Shown here: piece by piece, positions 4,469 through 30,719 of the stretch | Numbering within the stretch: the stretch's first letter is position 1 | Layout: each line of letters starts with the position of its first letter | IMG/VR virus record: IMGVR_UViG_3300019828_000026 | Span: 1-30,719 of that record | DNA length: 30,719 bases | Source: a virus | Reading direction: 5' to 3' (one strand) | The notes under the pieces: generated by a model | Seen by the model: only the letters and a program-made list of their open reading frames with translations | The model's database searches: none | What the model was told of the DNA's origin: nothing | Program-made: the position numbers and the translations under genes

Positions 4469-7400
4469 TTATTTTTCACCAATCATAAGTCTATCACCTT
4501 CACCCCACTCACCTGTCATTAAATACTCTAAACCATAATCAAGAAGAGCAAACTTATCCCAGGTTTTCATGTTCTTTTCTATATCATCATCTTCAAAGAA
4601 AGCATCATAGATAGTTTCAAGAGCATTTGTGAGCGTTGCAAACATTCCAAATACAGCTGTCCCTGTTAGTCCTGCCCATAGACCTGCAGCAGCCCACGCT
4701 TCTTTTGCAGTACCTATTCTAGCCCTTTCATTTGTTACCATTTCTCTTTGTTTATCTACATAAATAGCAAACTTACCAAGTGCAGCCGTAACAGTAGTTT
4801 TACTATAATTAAATCTAGCATATCGGTGCATAGATCCTGCTAGTTGGTCTGCATTCATAAAGATTTCTGTCATTGCTTCAGTTGTTTTCCAGCTTTTTCC
4901 TGGATTTTTTGCTTGCCAATCATGTACTGATACAATTATTTGAGGTATCCTTGAGAATGCTTCTGAAGCAATATAGACATCACCAGAAAGTTTAGTAGCT
5001 CGTTTTAAAGTATTGGCTGGATTTAACAGGCGATACGTTAGGTCTTTAAGCCCTTCAGGAGATGTATTCCAAGAGGTTTGTCCTTCACCAAGCTCAATCA
5101 TTTTATTAGCAAAGAGAGAAGTCATCATCTCATGGTTTGTTACATCTAAAAACCCTATCTCTTTTGCTTTATAAAGAATAAACATTAATTCTTCTGATGA
5201 TATTTTTTCTTTATATCCAAAAAAACCTTTCTTACTTTCAGGTAAATTAACTAATTCTCCCATTTCCATATACTTATCTAAAGCATCCCATACTGCTTTG
5301 TCTGTTGCTTTCTCTTTAAATCCTAGTCTCATTGCCATCATAAATAAACGAGCGGAATCTCTAAAGTTTTCTGCTACTTTTATAGGATTATATAAAGGTC
5401 CATCTTGACCATAAACAAACAAGTTTGCTAGTGCTGCAGGAGATTGTACTAATAACATATTAAAAGGATTAAGTCTAATACTTAAAAAAGTTATTGCTCT
5501 ATCAAGAGCTCCTTCAATTTCTTTAGATCCTCTTTGTGTTCTTCTTAAAGCTATAATAACTGGATTTGTGTTAATACTTTTTAAGAATCCAGAATTATTT
5601 TCTAGCTTATCTGCAATACCTTTTGCCGTATTAAACACAATGTTAGCTAATACTCTATTAGGAACACCTTGGCGTAGCTCTACAATTTGATCATACAAAG
5701 CTAAGGCTTGATCAAACTCTGCTTGCATTTCTGCTTTTTTCTTAATTTGGTCTCTCGATACAGGAAAAGCATTTGATTTATCTGTACGTACAGAATGTTT
5801 AGGATTAGGAGTTATTGTAACTTTACCTTTAGCTCCAGGTTTTACATATAGTTTTACATACATCTCTTCCATACGAGTTACTGCAAGATCATTAAGATAT
5901 TTTTTACCTGTTGTATGACTCTTAATGAGTGTTGATTTTAATGGTCCATCTGCAGTATCCCAATGTAATAGATTACCACGTAATGATCCAGACATAGCTG
6001 TGTTTGCTTCTGCTTCATAATGCAAACGTACTGTTTGAGCTTGTAAGTCTTTACCTAAGCGTACAATAAAAACATGGTTAGGATACATTTGTTTCATTTT
6101 ATTTAACGACATTGATGAAAACTCTTGTGCATTTTTAAGAGATTCAAAAGTACCAACAACTCTACCATATTGTTCATGAGCTGTAATTAATTCAGACTTA
6201 GCCTCACTAACCTTTTGTGATAAGTTTTGTTCTGATAAATCTACTAGTCCTTCTTTTACAGTACCTATATTAGGAGTATTTCCTTTTGAATCCATAAAGT
6301 TTGAGGTAATACCATTACGTACTACTTTGTAAGGAATAGCTACAATAACATTTGAGTCAGTATTAATTCTTGGTATATGACCAGGTATGTAAGGAATCAC
6401 ATTAGTTTGTAATGGCTGTGGTTTAAATGTATTAGACATCACATAATCAGATTTTACTTCTAATGGAGTATTAGGATCTTCTATTATATGACTTGCTCTA
6501 AAGATTTGTTCTTTAGGCATACCATTTTCAAAGTTAAATACTTTTCCTGTTTCATGCATATGTTGTTTATTTACAGTAATTAGTCTCATTCCCTGGTAAT
6601 CACTATGATATACCATAATATTATAGATATTACCATCAGGACCTACAGCTATAACATTATCTGGAGTTATCATAAAGTTCTCCATTACAGGAAGAACTTG
6701 GGGTACCCCTGTACGAGGATCTTTTAAAATAAACTGTTGATTATATCCAGAACGTGTAAGTACATTATATGCTTCACTACTTTGAAAACGATACATACTA
6801 TTTAAAAACATTCTAAAGTTATGAGCAGCTCTTTGAATACGTAGTTGACGTTCTAATTTCATAGGAGGTAAGACATCTTGAATTAACTCTAATGTAGGAT
6901 AATCCATTTGTAATTGACGAGCAGCATCCAATACTTTATCTAACATGATTTGATCTGTTTTACCTAGTCTAGCTACTACGTTTTTAAGCATAATCTTACG
7001 TTGTTGATCACCATACTGTTGTACTCGTAGCATACTTTGTCTATAATGCTGCTCAACCTCTTTAGGAAATCTACCAATACTCATATTCCAATACGCTGTA
7101 GGACCACCAATACTAGGACTACTTCCTGGTAGTATTCTGATTGTAGCTTTAGGAAAAAATCCTCCTACTATACTATTACTATATAATTCTTCAGGAGTTC
7201 TAGTAAGTTCATTATCAAAGAACTCAGTAAAAGAAGTCTTTTCATTCCATCTAATAATAAAAGAACTAGTAGTATCCCTGTTTAATCGTTCTTCAGGAAT
7301 GATACCATCTTTATATACCTCAATAGGTTGGAATGAGCCATCTCTGTCTAGTACCTCATGAATTTCTAATGATTGTTCAGGTAGTAATTCTTTAGCTTTC

Positions 7401-8734
7401 CTAGTATTTAATATCTTAGCTTTAATAGCATTGTATACTCTCATAACTTCTTGAGGACTCTTAAAGTTTTCTACAATACTTTTTCTATAAGCAACTCCAT
7501 AATTAAAGCCAGTACCTGTACCTTGTAATATATCTAAAGAAGGTGCTTGAACTACTGGATAATCTTTTATTATTTGTTCATTAAGTTCTAATGTTTTAAA
7601 TATATATTCTCTTTTTAAAGCTACATGAGGATCAGCAGGGTCAAGTAATGCCATCATATCTTCAGCTTTTTTAGCTCTGGCTATTTGAGCAATGTAAGTT
7701 GCATCAGGAACTGGTCCTATGTTATTAGCTTTATATACATTATCTACAGGATCATACATCTTAAGGAGTAGTTGCTCAGGATTAAGACCTACCTTAGGAA
7801 GTGTATCAGGATTTCTTAGGATCTCTGTCCACATTTCTATACCTGCGGTAGGATTAGCAATATTAGTTGTAACTAAAGGAGTGTTAACTTTTGGATTACC
7901 TTCTGCAGGCATTACTTTTTGAATATCTTTATATCTTTTAGCATTAAAACTTTCATATGAACTACGATTAATCCTTGCTTCATAGTTTGCTTTAGACTCT
8001 TCAGGTAACTGAAGATTAGTTACATGAGCTATTTCATGTTCTACAATAAACTGTACATACTCTTCAGGAGTATTAATTACAATCTCAAACTCACCAAATG
8101 CTTCAAAGTCTTCTATTTGTTTTTGTTGTTCAGGTATAGCTGGATTTCTCCATGTTACTATACCATCTACAATGAATGCTCTAGCAGGTACTTTTGGAAA
8201 TGTTTTTTTAATTAATTCTGCATCTACAGTAATTTCTAGTGTTTCTTTATTAAACTGTGCCTTTACTGGATTACCCTTTAGACTAACACGACCAGTAGGG
8301 TTATAGTTAATAGGAACTACTATACCAGCAGAGGTTATAGTACTTGTAGGTAGTGTTATGTTTTCTAATGCAGGATCTACTACACTCTTAACTTCTTTTT
8401 CAAATCTAAAAGGTTTCTTTTTAGGCTGTCTTATTTTGTGAATAGCATAAGGTAAAGCAAATAATAATACAGTTTCTAGCATTAATGCTGTTTTACCAGG
8501 ATCCTTACTAGACTTTGCTGCTGCATCTATAGCTTCTCCTAGTAGATCAAAAGGCATTTTAGCTATTGAATTGGCTTGTACATCCATTCCTAATTGTCTT
8601 AAAGACCAATCTAATCCTTCTGCAATTTCTTTGGTTAATGCAGTTTTTCGTTGCTCCTGCACACCTTCTCTTATCTCAGTAAAAGTCCTTTTTCTATTTT
8701 CAATTAATTGTTTACCTGCCTCGTCTGAAGACAC
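4469..8734 (-). CDS. Giant internal virion protein with HExxH metalloprotease motif (1421 aa, GTG start)
   Basis: This is the largest gene of the window. By size and place it corresponds to the long ejectosome proteins of podoviruses (compare T7 gp16). Residues 231-240 read VEHEIAHVTN, an HExxH zinc-protease motif (His233, Glu234, His237), with acidic residues downstream (PEESKANYEARI) that could supply the third ligand. The C-terminal 100 residues hold alanine/glycine-rich hydrophobic stretches (AWAAAGLWAGL, GTAVFGMFATL) and an acidic patch (FFEDDDIEKN). The start is a GTG preceded by AAAGGA 8-10 nt upstream. Both lie in a recent duplication: the first residues MSSDEAGKQ repeat the C-terminus of the preceding ORF, so this ORF and the 297-aa ORF were probably once one reading frame of about 1.7 thousand residues. 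The protease function is inference from the motif. Confidence 0.7.
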   Translation of the reverse strand: MSSDEAGKQLIENRKRTFTEIREGVQEQRKTALTKEIAEGLDWSLRQLGMDVQANSIAKMPFDLLGEAIDAAAKSSKDPGKTALMLETVLLFALPYAIHKIRQPKKKPFRFEKEVKSVVDPALENITLPTSTITSAGIVVPINYNPTGRVSLKGNPVKAQFNKETLEITVDAELIKKTFPKVPARAFIVDGIVTWRNPAIPEQQKQIEDFEAFGEFEIVINTPEEYVQFIVEHEIAHVTNLQLPEESKANYEARINRSSYESFNAKRYKDIQKVMPAEGNPKVNTPLVTTNIANPTAGIEMWTEILRNPDTLPKVGLNPEQLLLKMYDPVDNVYKANNIGPVPDATYIAQIARAKKAEDMMALLDPADPHVALKREYIFKTLELNEQIIKDYPVVQAPSLDILQGTGTGFNYGVAYRKSIVENFKSPQEVMRVYNAIKAKILNTRKAKELLPEQSLEIHEVLDRDGSFQPIEVYKDGIIPEERLNRDTTSSFIIRWNEKTSFTEFFDNELTRTPEELYSNSIVGGFFPKATIRILPGSSPSIGGPTAYWNMSIGRFPKEVEQHYRQSMLRVQQYGDQQRKIMLKNVVARLGKTDQIMLDKVLDAARQLQMDYPTLELIQDVLPPMKLERQLRIQRAAHNFRMFLNSMYRFQSSEAYNVLTRSGYNQQFILKDPRTGVPQVLPVMENFMITPDNVIAVGPDGNIYNIMVYHSDYQGMRLITVNKQHMHETGKVFNFENGMPKEQIFRASHIIEDPNTPLEVKSDYVMSNTFKPQPLQTNVIPYIPGHIPRINTDSNVIVAIPYKVVRNGITSNFMDSKGNTPNIGTVKEGLVDLSEQNLSQKVSEAKSELITAHEQYGRVVGTFESLKNAQEFSSMSLNKMKQMYPNHVFIVRLGKDLQAQTVRLHYEAEANTAMSGSLRGNLLHWDTADGPLKSTLIKSHTTGKKYLNDLAVTRMEEMYVKLYVKPGAKGKVTITPNPKHSVRTDKSNAFPVSRDQIKKKAEMQAEFDQALALYDQIVELRQGVPNRVLANIVFNTAKGIADKLENNSGFLKSINTNPVIIALRRTQRGSKEIEGALDRAITFLSIRLNPFNMLLVQSPAALANLFVYGQDGPLYNPIKVAENFRDSARLFMMAMRLGFKEKATDKAVWDALDKYMEMGELVNLPESKKGFFGYKEKISSEELMFILYKAKEIGFLDVTNHEMMTSLFANKMIELGEGQTSWNTSPEGLKDLTYRLLNPANTLKRATKLSGDVYIASEAFSRIPQIIVSVHDWQAKNPGKSWKTTEAMTEIFMNADQLAGSMHRYARFNYSKTTVTAALGKFAIYVDKQREMVTNERARIGTAKEAWAAAGLWAGLTGTAVFGMFATLTNALETIYDAFFEDDDIEKNMKTWDKFALLDYGLEYLMTGEWGEGDRLMIGEK

Positions 8735-19671: not shown

Positions 19672-21204
19672 TTAATGTGTTATCCCGCCAAACCTGCTGT
19701 GGGTTGGTAATGGTTTACTAAAACTTAAACCTTGATATGCTCTTACCTTTGGAACTAAAGATATAGCTATCGCATTAGATAAGGCATCTTTAATATCATC
19801 ATGTGGTGGATGTACCATTACTAATTCTTCTTCTAATGTCTGACAGTTACCACCCTTGTAGTGCCATATTTGTAAGTTATCATACTTAGGTTCTAATACA
19901 GAACCCACTCGTTGGGCTTTATCTCCTAGATGTCTTGTAGGTCTAAACTCATCTATTGACAAAGGTATTCCATTAGGTTTAAGGTAACTATCTTTTAGTT
20001 CTTTTACAATCGTTTGTTGTGCTACAGTAATCTCAGCACGTATCTTCCTGAATCCCCATTTTTCCCATGACTGTAATATATGTTTGTAGTAATCTACAAT
20101 CTTTTCTGTTTTAAATCTATCTATTTCTAAGATATAATAGTTTGCTTGGTGATCAACACCTACTACTACAAGAGCAGTATAATCTGCTTGTTTCCTTAAA
20201 CTAAACGCAAAGTCAATTGCTGCATAGATGTTTAGTTTTCTATCTCTAATATACCAGTCTCCTTCTTTATTTTGTAAGACTGCTTTATCAAAGTACTGAA
20301 AGTTATCTTTATTAATTCTAGCACTTTCTGTAGTATTAGGATCATTATAATACTGAGCAAAGAATTGTGTCTGGTCAATGTATTTAGCTTTAATCCTTGC
20401 AAGTTCCTTAGCATCAAAACCAAAAGACTTCCCATCACTTCTTGTTCGTTTTGCCCAGAGAAACTCTCCGTCTATCTCTACTACTTTTTGAAAGAGTTCA
20501 TATACTTCATGTTCGGTTTCTTCTTCTTCATCTGTAGCATAATAAACCTCTTTCATGTTTATCATAGTATCATAAATGTCTCTAGGATGATAACGAGTGC
20601 CAACAACCCACTCAACCGCACCAGGATTCTCAATAGAGGCTAGCTGTGAATAAGCTGAAGCTACTTTATCTCTTCCCTCTTCTGTATATGCGTTACCAGG
20701 TACTACTATATCGTCCAGTACGACCACGTCAGCGTGAAAACCAGTGGTGTTTGAGGTCAACCCTACCGCTTTTACTGTAGCGTCTCTAATACCCTCTAAT
20801 TTGCGTTGAGGGTGGTCAACAGATATTTCAGCTACTGCCCATTTTTCTCTTTTTCCTTCTTCAGGATGGACCATGTCTGACCAATACCTACGATAGATGG
20901 GGGAATCTATTATCTGTTTTATTGCATAGAGCTGTTTCTCTGCTAAATCTGCTGTTGCTGATACATAGAGTACTGTTGTTTCAGGATTCTTAGTTATATG
21001 CCAAGCTGTCCTGTAAGCAATGAGCTTACTCTTCATATGTCCACGAGGAAGTAGGACTAATTGGTTATCTTTAGCTTCTGATCTTGCCCACCAACTAATA
21101 AGTTCTTCATGTAAGGCTCCATATAATATATGAGGAGCAACTAATTTAATAAAGGTAAGTAAGTCTGCTTCAGCAGCTTCCCTGATTTGGTCAATCTGAG
21201 ACAT
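19672..21204 (-). CDS. Large terminase subunit (510 aa)
   Basis: ATPase-nuclease motor that packages DNA into the procapsid. The ATPase Walker A-type motif is LPRGHMKS (residues 52-59), Walker B is VVVLDD (160-165) and a coupling motif VGTRYHPRD lies at 201-209. The nuclease domain shows AAIDFAFS with Asp331, Glu391 and HDDIKDAL at 468-475, giving the expected acidic triad. It precedes the portal gene as in most podoviruses. A Glu after the Walker B Asp is replaced by Asp165, unusual but seen in some terminases. Confidence 0.92.
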   Translation of the reverse strand: MSQIDQIREAAEADLLTFIKLVAPHILYGALHEELISWWARSEAKDNQLVLLPRGHMKSKLIAYRTAWHITKNPETTVLYVSATADLAEKQLYAIKQIIDSPIYRRYWSDMVHPEEGKREKWAVAEISVDHPQRKLEGIRDATVKAVGLTSNTTGFHADVVVLDDIVVPGNAYTEEGRDKVASAYSQLASIENPGAVEWVVGTRYHPRDIYDTMINMKEVYYATDEEEETEHEVYELFQKVVEIDGEFLWAKRTRSDGKSFGFDAKELARIKAKYIDQTQFFAQYYNDPNTTESARINKDNFQYFDKAVLQNKEGDWYIRDRKLNIYAAIDFAFSLRKQADYTALVVVGVDHQANYYILEIDRFKTEKIVDYYKHILQSWEKWGFRKIRAEITVAQQTIVKELKDSYLKPNGIPLSIDEFRPTRHLGDKAQRVGSVLEPKYDNLQIWHYKGGNCQTLEEELVMVHPPHDDIKDALSNAIAISLVPKVRAYQGLSFSKPLPTHSRFGGITH

Positions 21205-29850: not shown

Positions 29851-30126
29851 TTACCATTTAACTTTATCTGCCCAATAAGCAGCACTTGTCTTTCCTTTTG
29901 CTATATTTTTACGATGTCTTGCTTTAAATGATTTACGTTTAGCTTTCATTTTATCTGATTCTCCTGATTTAGGAGCACCTGCAGTAGAAGCTCCTGCCTC
30001 TCCAAATCTAATCATTCTATCTTTGCCACCATCTTTAATAAGAACTACATGAGACTTTTTACCTTTAGTAGATCTTTTAGGTTTATTATAACCTGCAAAT
30101 GTTTCACCTCTATAATCTATACTCAT
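29851..30126 (-). CDS. 91-aa basic conserved marine phage protein
   Basis: The product is Lys/Arg-rich. The C-terminal part KRKSFKARHRKNIAKGKT, SAAYWADKVKW is a pattern I recall from conserved small proteins of unknown function in marine podoviruses. It may be packaged with DNA. It overlaps the previous stop (TAATG). Confidence 0.6.
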   Translation of the reverse strand: MSIDYRGETFAGYNKPKRSTKGKKSHVVLIKDGGKDRMIRFGEAGASTAGAPKSGESDKMKAKRKSFKARHRKNIAKGKTSAAYWADKVKW

Positions 30127-30305
30127 TAATAACCCAGGCTCATACTTTTTTTAGCTACCTTTTTAACTTTAGCTTTGTTTTTACTTTTAGTATGACTATA
30201 CCCTTTTGCTTTTAACTCAAGATGTCTTTTCTTAGTAGTTACCATTACTCCTTTACCAGCTTTGGAATACATCATATGAGGTTTAACTTTCTTATCTACA
30301 GCCAT
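30126..30305 (-). CDS. 59-aa basic protein, first gene of the rightmost operon
   Basis: Start chosen at 30305 (MAVDKKVKPHMMYSKAGKG) because AAGGAG lies 9 nt upstream; an ATG six codons earlier has no such site. The rest is Lys-rich (KKRHLELKAKGYSHTKSKNKAKVKKVAKK). It and the next gene form a basic pair that may bind nucleic acid. Function unknown. Confidence 0.55.
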   Translation of the reverse strand: MAVDKKVKPHMMYSKAGKGVMVTTKKRHLELKAKGYSHTKSKNKAKVKKVAKKSMSLGY

Positions 30306-30435
30306 AGCTTTGGTCTCCTTCATATTTAATTAATCTCTATTATAACATGATACAATGATACTATTATAAACTACTATTAAAACTATTGATTATATCATTA
30401 GTTACATGTTATTGATTATTACTTATTATACTAAT

Positions 30436-30464
30436 ATTATATCATACTTTTAATCAAAAGTCAA
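30436..30464 (-). promoter_or_regulatory. Sigma70-type promoter P1
   Basis: On the - strand TTGACT (30464-30459), 17 bp, TATAAT (30441-30436), followed by ATTAGTAT as in the other two promoters, but here ATA replaces ATG, so the mRNA has a leader before the first gene at 30305. Confidence 0.8.
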
Positions 30465-30503: not shown

Positions 30504-30601
30504 GTACTGATTCTGGATAATCCTTCCTTGCAAAAAAGGAATCCTATTCCGAACATTTCTCCTAGATAATTTTAAGTTGTAATTCATTTAGTATATGCTG
30601 C

Positions 30602-30667
30602 GACTAATCCCCCCTGGAGGGGGGTTCCACATAAACCTGTGGAAAAGGACTATCGTCCTTATTAGTC
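30602..30667. other. Perfect four-way-junction (cloverleaf) element
   Basis: Seven-bp closing stem GACTAAT / ATTAGTC encloses three hairpins: CCCCCC-TGGA-GGGGGG, TTCCACA-TAAACC-TGTGGAA and AAGGAC-TATC-GTCCTT. All arms are perfect and follow each other without one unpaired base at the junction, in 66 nt. It has no tRNA landmarks. Either strand can fold; function unknown. Confidence 0.85.
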
Positions 30668-30694
30668 TTGCTAATTAATTCTGTGTAGAGAGAC

Positions 30695-30719
30695 ATGTAT
30701 ACGATAATAATAATGTGTA
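30695..30719 (+). CDS. Possible start of a rightward gene, cut by window edge
   Basis: An ATG at 30695 preceded by GAGAG opens a frame (MYTIIIMC) to the window end. Only eight codons are visible, so this is a weak call. Confidence 0.25.

Follow-up and report, generated by a model that had tools for sequence, protein, structure and literature searches.

The window, a 30719-base IMG/VR record analysed over its full length, carries at positions 30602-30667 a perfect four-way junction, an element that is real, is conserved in structure among related phages and lies at the predicted end of the phage genome; its function is unproven. On balance, the element is probably a module of folded DNA, placed where a linear phage genome of the T7 style has its left physical end. 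Its structure, the maintenance of pairing across unrelated arms and its position beside a conserved end motif are all well supported. The features on which the argument depends are as follows.

19672-21204, minus strand: large terminase gene (phrog_38).
30126-30323, minus strand: final leftward ORF ahead of the non-coding region, 65 amino acids, no PHROG.
30436-30464, minus strand: strong sigma-70-like promoter TTGACT-17-TATAAT, reading leftward to the late genes and away from the junction.
30555-30590, no strand: block A, the conserved terminus motif ATTTCTCCTAGATAATTTTAAGTTGTAATTCATTTA, from motif comparison.
30580-30581: predicted left genome end and start of the direct terminal repeat, with the cut between these two positions (+/-2 nt), by homology with five isolates.
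30581-30719: predicted direct terminal repeat, as far as the record covers it, by homology.
30602-30667, no strand: perfect four-way junction (cloverleaf), from sequence, folding, scanner and shuffles.
30602-30608: closing stem, 5' side, GACTAAT, pairing with ATTAGTC at 30661-30667, from sequence and fold.
30609-30624: arm 1, CCCCCC-TGGA-GGGGGG, from sequence and comparison.
30625-30644: arm 2, TTCCACA-TAAACC-TGTGGAA, from sequence; letters not common to other lineages.
30645-30660: arm 3, AAGGAC-TATC-GTCCTT, from sequence; letters not common to other lineages.
30661-30667: closing stem, 3' side, ATTAGTC, from sequence and fold.

The stems are 7, 6, 7 and 6 bp long, no base is left unpaired at the junction, and all 26 pairs are Watson-Crick. 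Folding of an 86-nt segment gives the junction both as the minimum free energy structure (-34.6 kcal/mol) and as the centroid; the z-score is -5.0, no fold among 200 shuffles is equally good, and the junction is formed by either strand with RNA and DNA parameters alike. The gapless four-way geometry of the original prediction is thus borne out by the sequence, by its pairs and by the fold. A scanner written for the purpose, which looks for a closing stem enclosing three abutting hairpins, gives the junction a score of 68. When the window was shuffled 2243 times with its dinucleotides preserved (68.9 Mb in all), zero-gap junctions scored 63 at best, and junctions of any kind reached 65 or more three times. 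Because no shuffled zero-gap junction attained 68, a chance origin is not reasonable, as had been supposed from the letters alone. The element had also been described as not being a tRNA, and indeed ARAGORN finds no match to a tRNA or tmRNA. No Rfam family reaches its gathering score in the window, and a relaxed search of the element gives sub-gathering matches only, among them P9 (18.9 of 43 bits) and whalefall-1 (RF01762; 14.6 of 37 bits), the latter aligning weakly and locally with arm 1 while the overall layout is unmatched; the matches in MEP402 are likewise below threshold. An artefact of assembly might be suspected, since the window is a fragment from a metagenome and stops 52 nt past the junction, but L114, an independent and longer contig, has the identical element, L100, from a different sample, matches it exactly from +56 past the cut onward, and the cultured phages MEP401 and MEP402 have the same architecture. 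These independent records already refute an assembly artefact, and its probability is practically nil.

The phage of the window is a marine Zobellviridae podovirus near the Methylophilales (OM43) phages MEP401 and MEP402, both of which infect OM43 strain FZCC0133 and are placed in the Zobellviridae; the terminase and portal DNA of the window is 81% identical to that of each. The late genes of the window run leftward. One of its minus-strand ORFs (4469-8734, 1421 aa) occupies the place of an internal virion protein and contains an HEIAH zinc-peptidase-like motif, with no match in Pfam. L114, which is identical to the window across the junction and its right flank, has early genes running rightward past the junction. 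Since both L114 and the MEP401 and MEP402 genomes show these rightward early genes, the junction sits in the gap between leftward late and rightward early genes, as it does in MEP401 and MEP402. The earlier description of a non-coding region beside possible divergent transcription can therefore be refined to this late/early gap. Window and L114 are nearly identical over 419 aligned nt apart from a 72-nt segment, rich in inverted repeats, that is extra in L114 just to the left of block A (2300-2378 of L114 against 30548-30556 of the window); the difference may reflect a deletion in the window lineage or an effect of assembly.

About 20 nt upstream of each junction lies block A, a deeply conserved motif of 36 nt that reads mostly TTTCTRTGAGATAWTTTTTNNTTGYARTKCA in relatives. 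A tolerant pattern finds it in 48 distinct sequences, a few of them spurious matches inside genes, and it is also present in the isolates ICP2, PA11, VP41s3, CRP-4 and Vibrio phage 1.264.O. Block A contains the start of the annotated direct terminal repeat in two cobaviruses, ICBM1 and ICBM2, and of the known repeat in the much more distant VpV262 and RIO-1, and the start of the ICBM3 record falls there too; in these five isolates the starts lie 17-19 nt downstream of the motif's AG, a spread of 2 nt. The ends of ICBM1-3 were determined from PacBio reads, and the cobaviral repeats were noted to have a conserved, G+C-rich 5' portion, which was supposed to be an enzyme binding site (PMC6775973). 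The window carries the motif in its late/early gap, the mark of a Zobellviridae-type terminus. Because the starts of the five isolates fall in block A, the end of the window phage is predicted, by homology with these relatives, to lie between 30580 and 30581 (+/-2 nt), and with a cut there the junction would begin 21 nt into the terminal repeat; over six junction sequences the distance is 18-21 nt. The record ends 139 nt past the predicted cut, a distance that falls among the repeat lengths of relatives (121-172 bp). MEP401 (OP830906) and MEP402 (OP830907) are deposited as circles starting at a gene; block A predicts that their true linear starts fall between AGATATTTATTTGTTGC and AGTTC (+/-2 nt). 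In the same way the motif predicts ends for many Zobellviridae-like genomes and contigs that are circularised or cut arbitrarily in the records. Among the roles first suggested for the element, a link to packaging or concatemer cleavage fits this evidence.

The ends of metagenomic contigs bear on the same point. Of the 48 motif contigs, eleven have an end in the 200 nt past the predicted cut (16 in the first 320 nt), as against one with an end in the 200 nt before it; the L168 group, L280 and L283, which are unlike genome ends, were excluded from these statistics. In contig 3300030376_000768, a near relative lacking the junction, the predicted cut falls 1-2 nt from one end, and the two ends share 90 nt as a repeat with one mismatch; the window covers one end only. 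Such patterns, which come from contigs of relatives rather than from a measurement on the window phage, would be expected if a physical end with a terminal repeat exists.

Upstream of the cut, some relatives have inverted repeats. Hairpins with GNA triloops (e.g. CTCATC-GAA-GATGAG) occur upstream of block A in eight sequences (L036, L044, L282, L218, L219, L246, L291 and L298), compared with about one expected from shuffles; in five of these, which come from related phages, the hairpin is the same one, TAGCGNAGCTA.

The junction is found at the same place in six sequences, those of the window, MEP401, MEP402 and three further IMG/VR phages, and these fall into three unrelated sets of arms, with pairing intact in each. 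The MEP-type set (MEP401, MEP402, L088 and L028/L040) has the closing stem ACTGCC/GGCAGT and longer arms, and L056 (= L178, L272), with GCTAGC/GCTAGC, represents the third; in both, 2-3 unpaired bases separate the closing stem from arm 1. In arms 2 and 3, and likewise in the closing stems, no sequence is evidently common to the three sets, although all of them pair. Arm 1 takes the form CCCCC-TGG..GGGGG in every carrier and always comes first, its CCCCCTGG..GGGGG core being the only arm core that recurs in all of them. The equivalent of arm 1 in wider relatives is a C/G hairpin or C-runs, and distant relatives keep these together with the motif while the junction is absent. Three or four C-runs past the cut, in the place of the C/G hairpin of the OM43 phages, give the other strand G-quadruplex potential in ICBM1 (L303), ICBM2 (L306), PA11 (L310), 1.264.O (L304), L282 and L006. 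These conclusions about carriers rest on comparison of structures, a joint MAFFT alignment being unusable with arms that are unrelated. Within the MEP set, alignment gives one compensatory pair between MEP401 and MEP402 (CTAC/GTAG to CCAC/GTGG), one T-G to T-A change in the helices and, in L028, the loss of one pair at a helix end. A search for compensatory changes had been proposed at the outset, and they are indeed found across lineages, where unrelated arms still pair. Over the 110 nt past the cut, carriers have z-scores with DNA parameters between -4.9 and -6.6, whereas the median of all 55 sequences is -1.1. A pattern scan for further carriers gave no new one; its matches in L318 and L319 were false, and a match in a Flavobacteriales MAG from a scan of genome contigs was unrelated.

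The distribution of the junction is patchy. Close sisters lack it (L036 beside L028, L044 beside L056, and L039), from which it follows that it is not essential for making ends in this clade, and carriers are interleaved with non-carriers within a well supported clade of the terminase tree, so that the junction must have been gained or lost several times. Repeated gain or loss agrees with a useful structure that can be replaced; it is also the best argument that the junction is a functionless by-product, with palindromes recurring at the genome end through fold-back synthesis or end-joining and being tolerated in a non-coding repeat. The complete turnover of arms between near relatives and the sisters without a junction agree with such an origin, as does the 72-nt inverted-repeat-rich difference between the window and L114 just upstream. 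However, simple fold-back would give single hairpins rather than a closing stem over three abutting ones, the four-arm layout appears in three lineages, each time equally far from the cut and always with the C/G hairpin first, and the compensatory pair of MEP401 and MEP402 also speaks against it; we regard a by-product as quite unlikely. A stronger version of the functional reading, for which we claim only a tentative place, is that the OM43 phages have repeatedly rebuilt the cloverleaf from unrelated sequence as a working part of end formation that is read by its shape; inside the repeat and beside the terminase cut, the candidates for reading it would be the terminase complex or a phage four-way-junction resolvase.

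We infer that the element acts as DNA rather than as RNA. Folds of the top strand with DNA parameters contain no G-T pairs in any carrier, and G-U pairs number 2 of 40 in each MEP-type RNA fold and none in the top strands of the window and L056; since the two strands fold alike and G-T pairs are absent, there is a weak sign that DNA, rather than one RNA strand, is the molecule under selection. A structured phage RNA, such as a leader, a put-like antiterminator or a packaging RNA, would have to be transcribed rightward across the repeat after circularisation or concatemer formation. The strong RNA fold and the early genes downstream on the plus strand are in keeping with such a transcript, as is the precedent of the phi29 pRNA, likewise encoded near a genome end, but G-U pairs are nearly absent, no Rfam family is matched, and the upstream block A coincides with genome ends. 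Moreover, no strong consensus promoter reading into the junction was found in the three genomes scanned, and the sole strong promoter, which matches the consensus at 11 of 12 positions and is the same in MEP401, MEP402 and L114, is directed away. A possible sigma-70 promoter within block A was considered and rejected, as no consistent -35/-10 pair is directed into the junction. The suggestion of a structured RNA thus found no positive support, and we consider it unlikely.

Similarly, the element had been proposed as a boundary to transcription from either side. Its location between divergent blocks of genes would suit a bidirectional barrier between the two arms of the genome, and very stable hairpins can slow a polymerase. 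Arm 3, however, is not followed by the U/T-run of an intrinsic terminator, the next letters being ATTAGTCTTG (the terminator-like prediction in L114 has only this ATTAGTCTTG tail); the terminators annotated in related phages are at the other, convergent junction; and the leftward promoter begins beyond the element. A boundary, too, is left without positive support, and a barrier of this kind is very improbable.

The folded-DNA module at the left end, the reading that we prefer, presumably has a part in repeat formation or packaging, and the following course of events can be imagined. Within the concatemers formed during replication, the terminase complex would recognise block A and cut at about 30580/30581, which would leave the cloverleaf 18-21 nt inside the direct terminal repeat. 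In a single-stranded or supercoiled state, as might arise during duplication of the repeat or through strand displacement at the cut, the first hundred bases of the repeat would fold to form the four-way junction, which could then be read by the end-processing machinery, for which the terminase and/or a phage T7-type endonuclease I is our guess. Alternatively, the junction might keep the end in position until a second cut is made. T7-type endonuclease I is a resolvase of four-way junctions, and the enzyme (PF05367) is encoded by MEP401 (4e-24) and L114 (3e-24), as well as by ICBM1, ICBM2 and CRP-4. Among solved structures, those of phage endonuclease I match the L114 protein. The window does not span this gene, which is present in its close relative L114. 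Because these phages encode such an enzyme, a junction nuclease may recognise the element, as had been suggested.

No prior description of this junction, of a family-wide cut-site motif or of the compensatory change was found. The closest comparison is with the repeats of ICBM1-3, VpV262 and RIO-1, which belong to the same family, occupy the same place on the gene map and have block A at their start, but which contain C-runs or other folds rather than a four-way junction. T7 shares a linear genome with short direct repeats, an endonuclease I and inverted-repeat DNA near an end; its described hairpin, however, is a simple palindrome outside the repeat, whereas here the predicted repeat contains a closed cloverleaf, at 21 nt from the cut. 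The inverted terminal repeats of parvoviruses such as AAV also place a multi-arm palindrome at a genome end, as T-shaped hairpins at the very terminus that self-prime replication, in contrast to the direct repeat and internal junction of this tailed phage. The pRNA of phi29, a branched podovirus transcript with a three-way junction and a link to packaging, resembles the element in its branching and in being encoded near the end of a podovirus genome, but no transcript, Rfam match or strong promoter was found here. In phages with short direct repeats, T7 included, duplication of the repeat and the making of the left end are poorly understood. A conserved shape at a defined distance from a cut-site motif offers a concrete, testable handle on left-end formation, the more so as the group includes the cultured MEP401 and MEP402 and encodes a four-way-junction nuclease.

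Downstream of the junction, many relatives share a further conserved stretch, in which TTGTATTACAAT is followed by TATACTATTC and TTATTGATAT (e.g. at 3893-3920 of L002).
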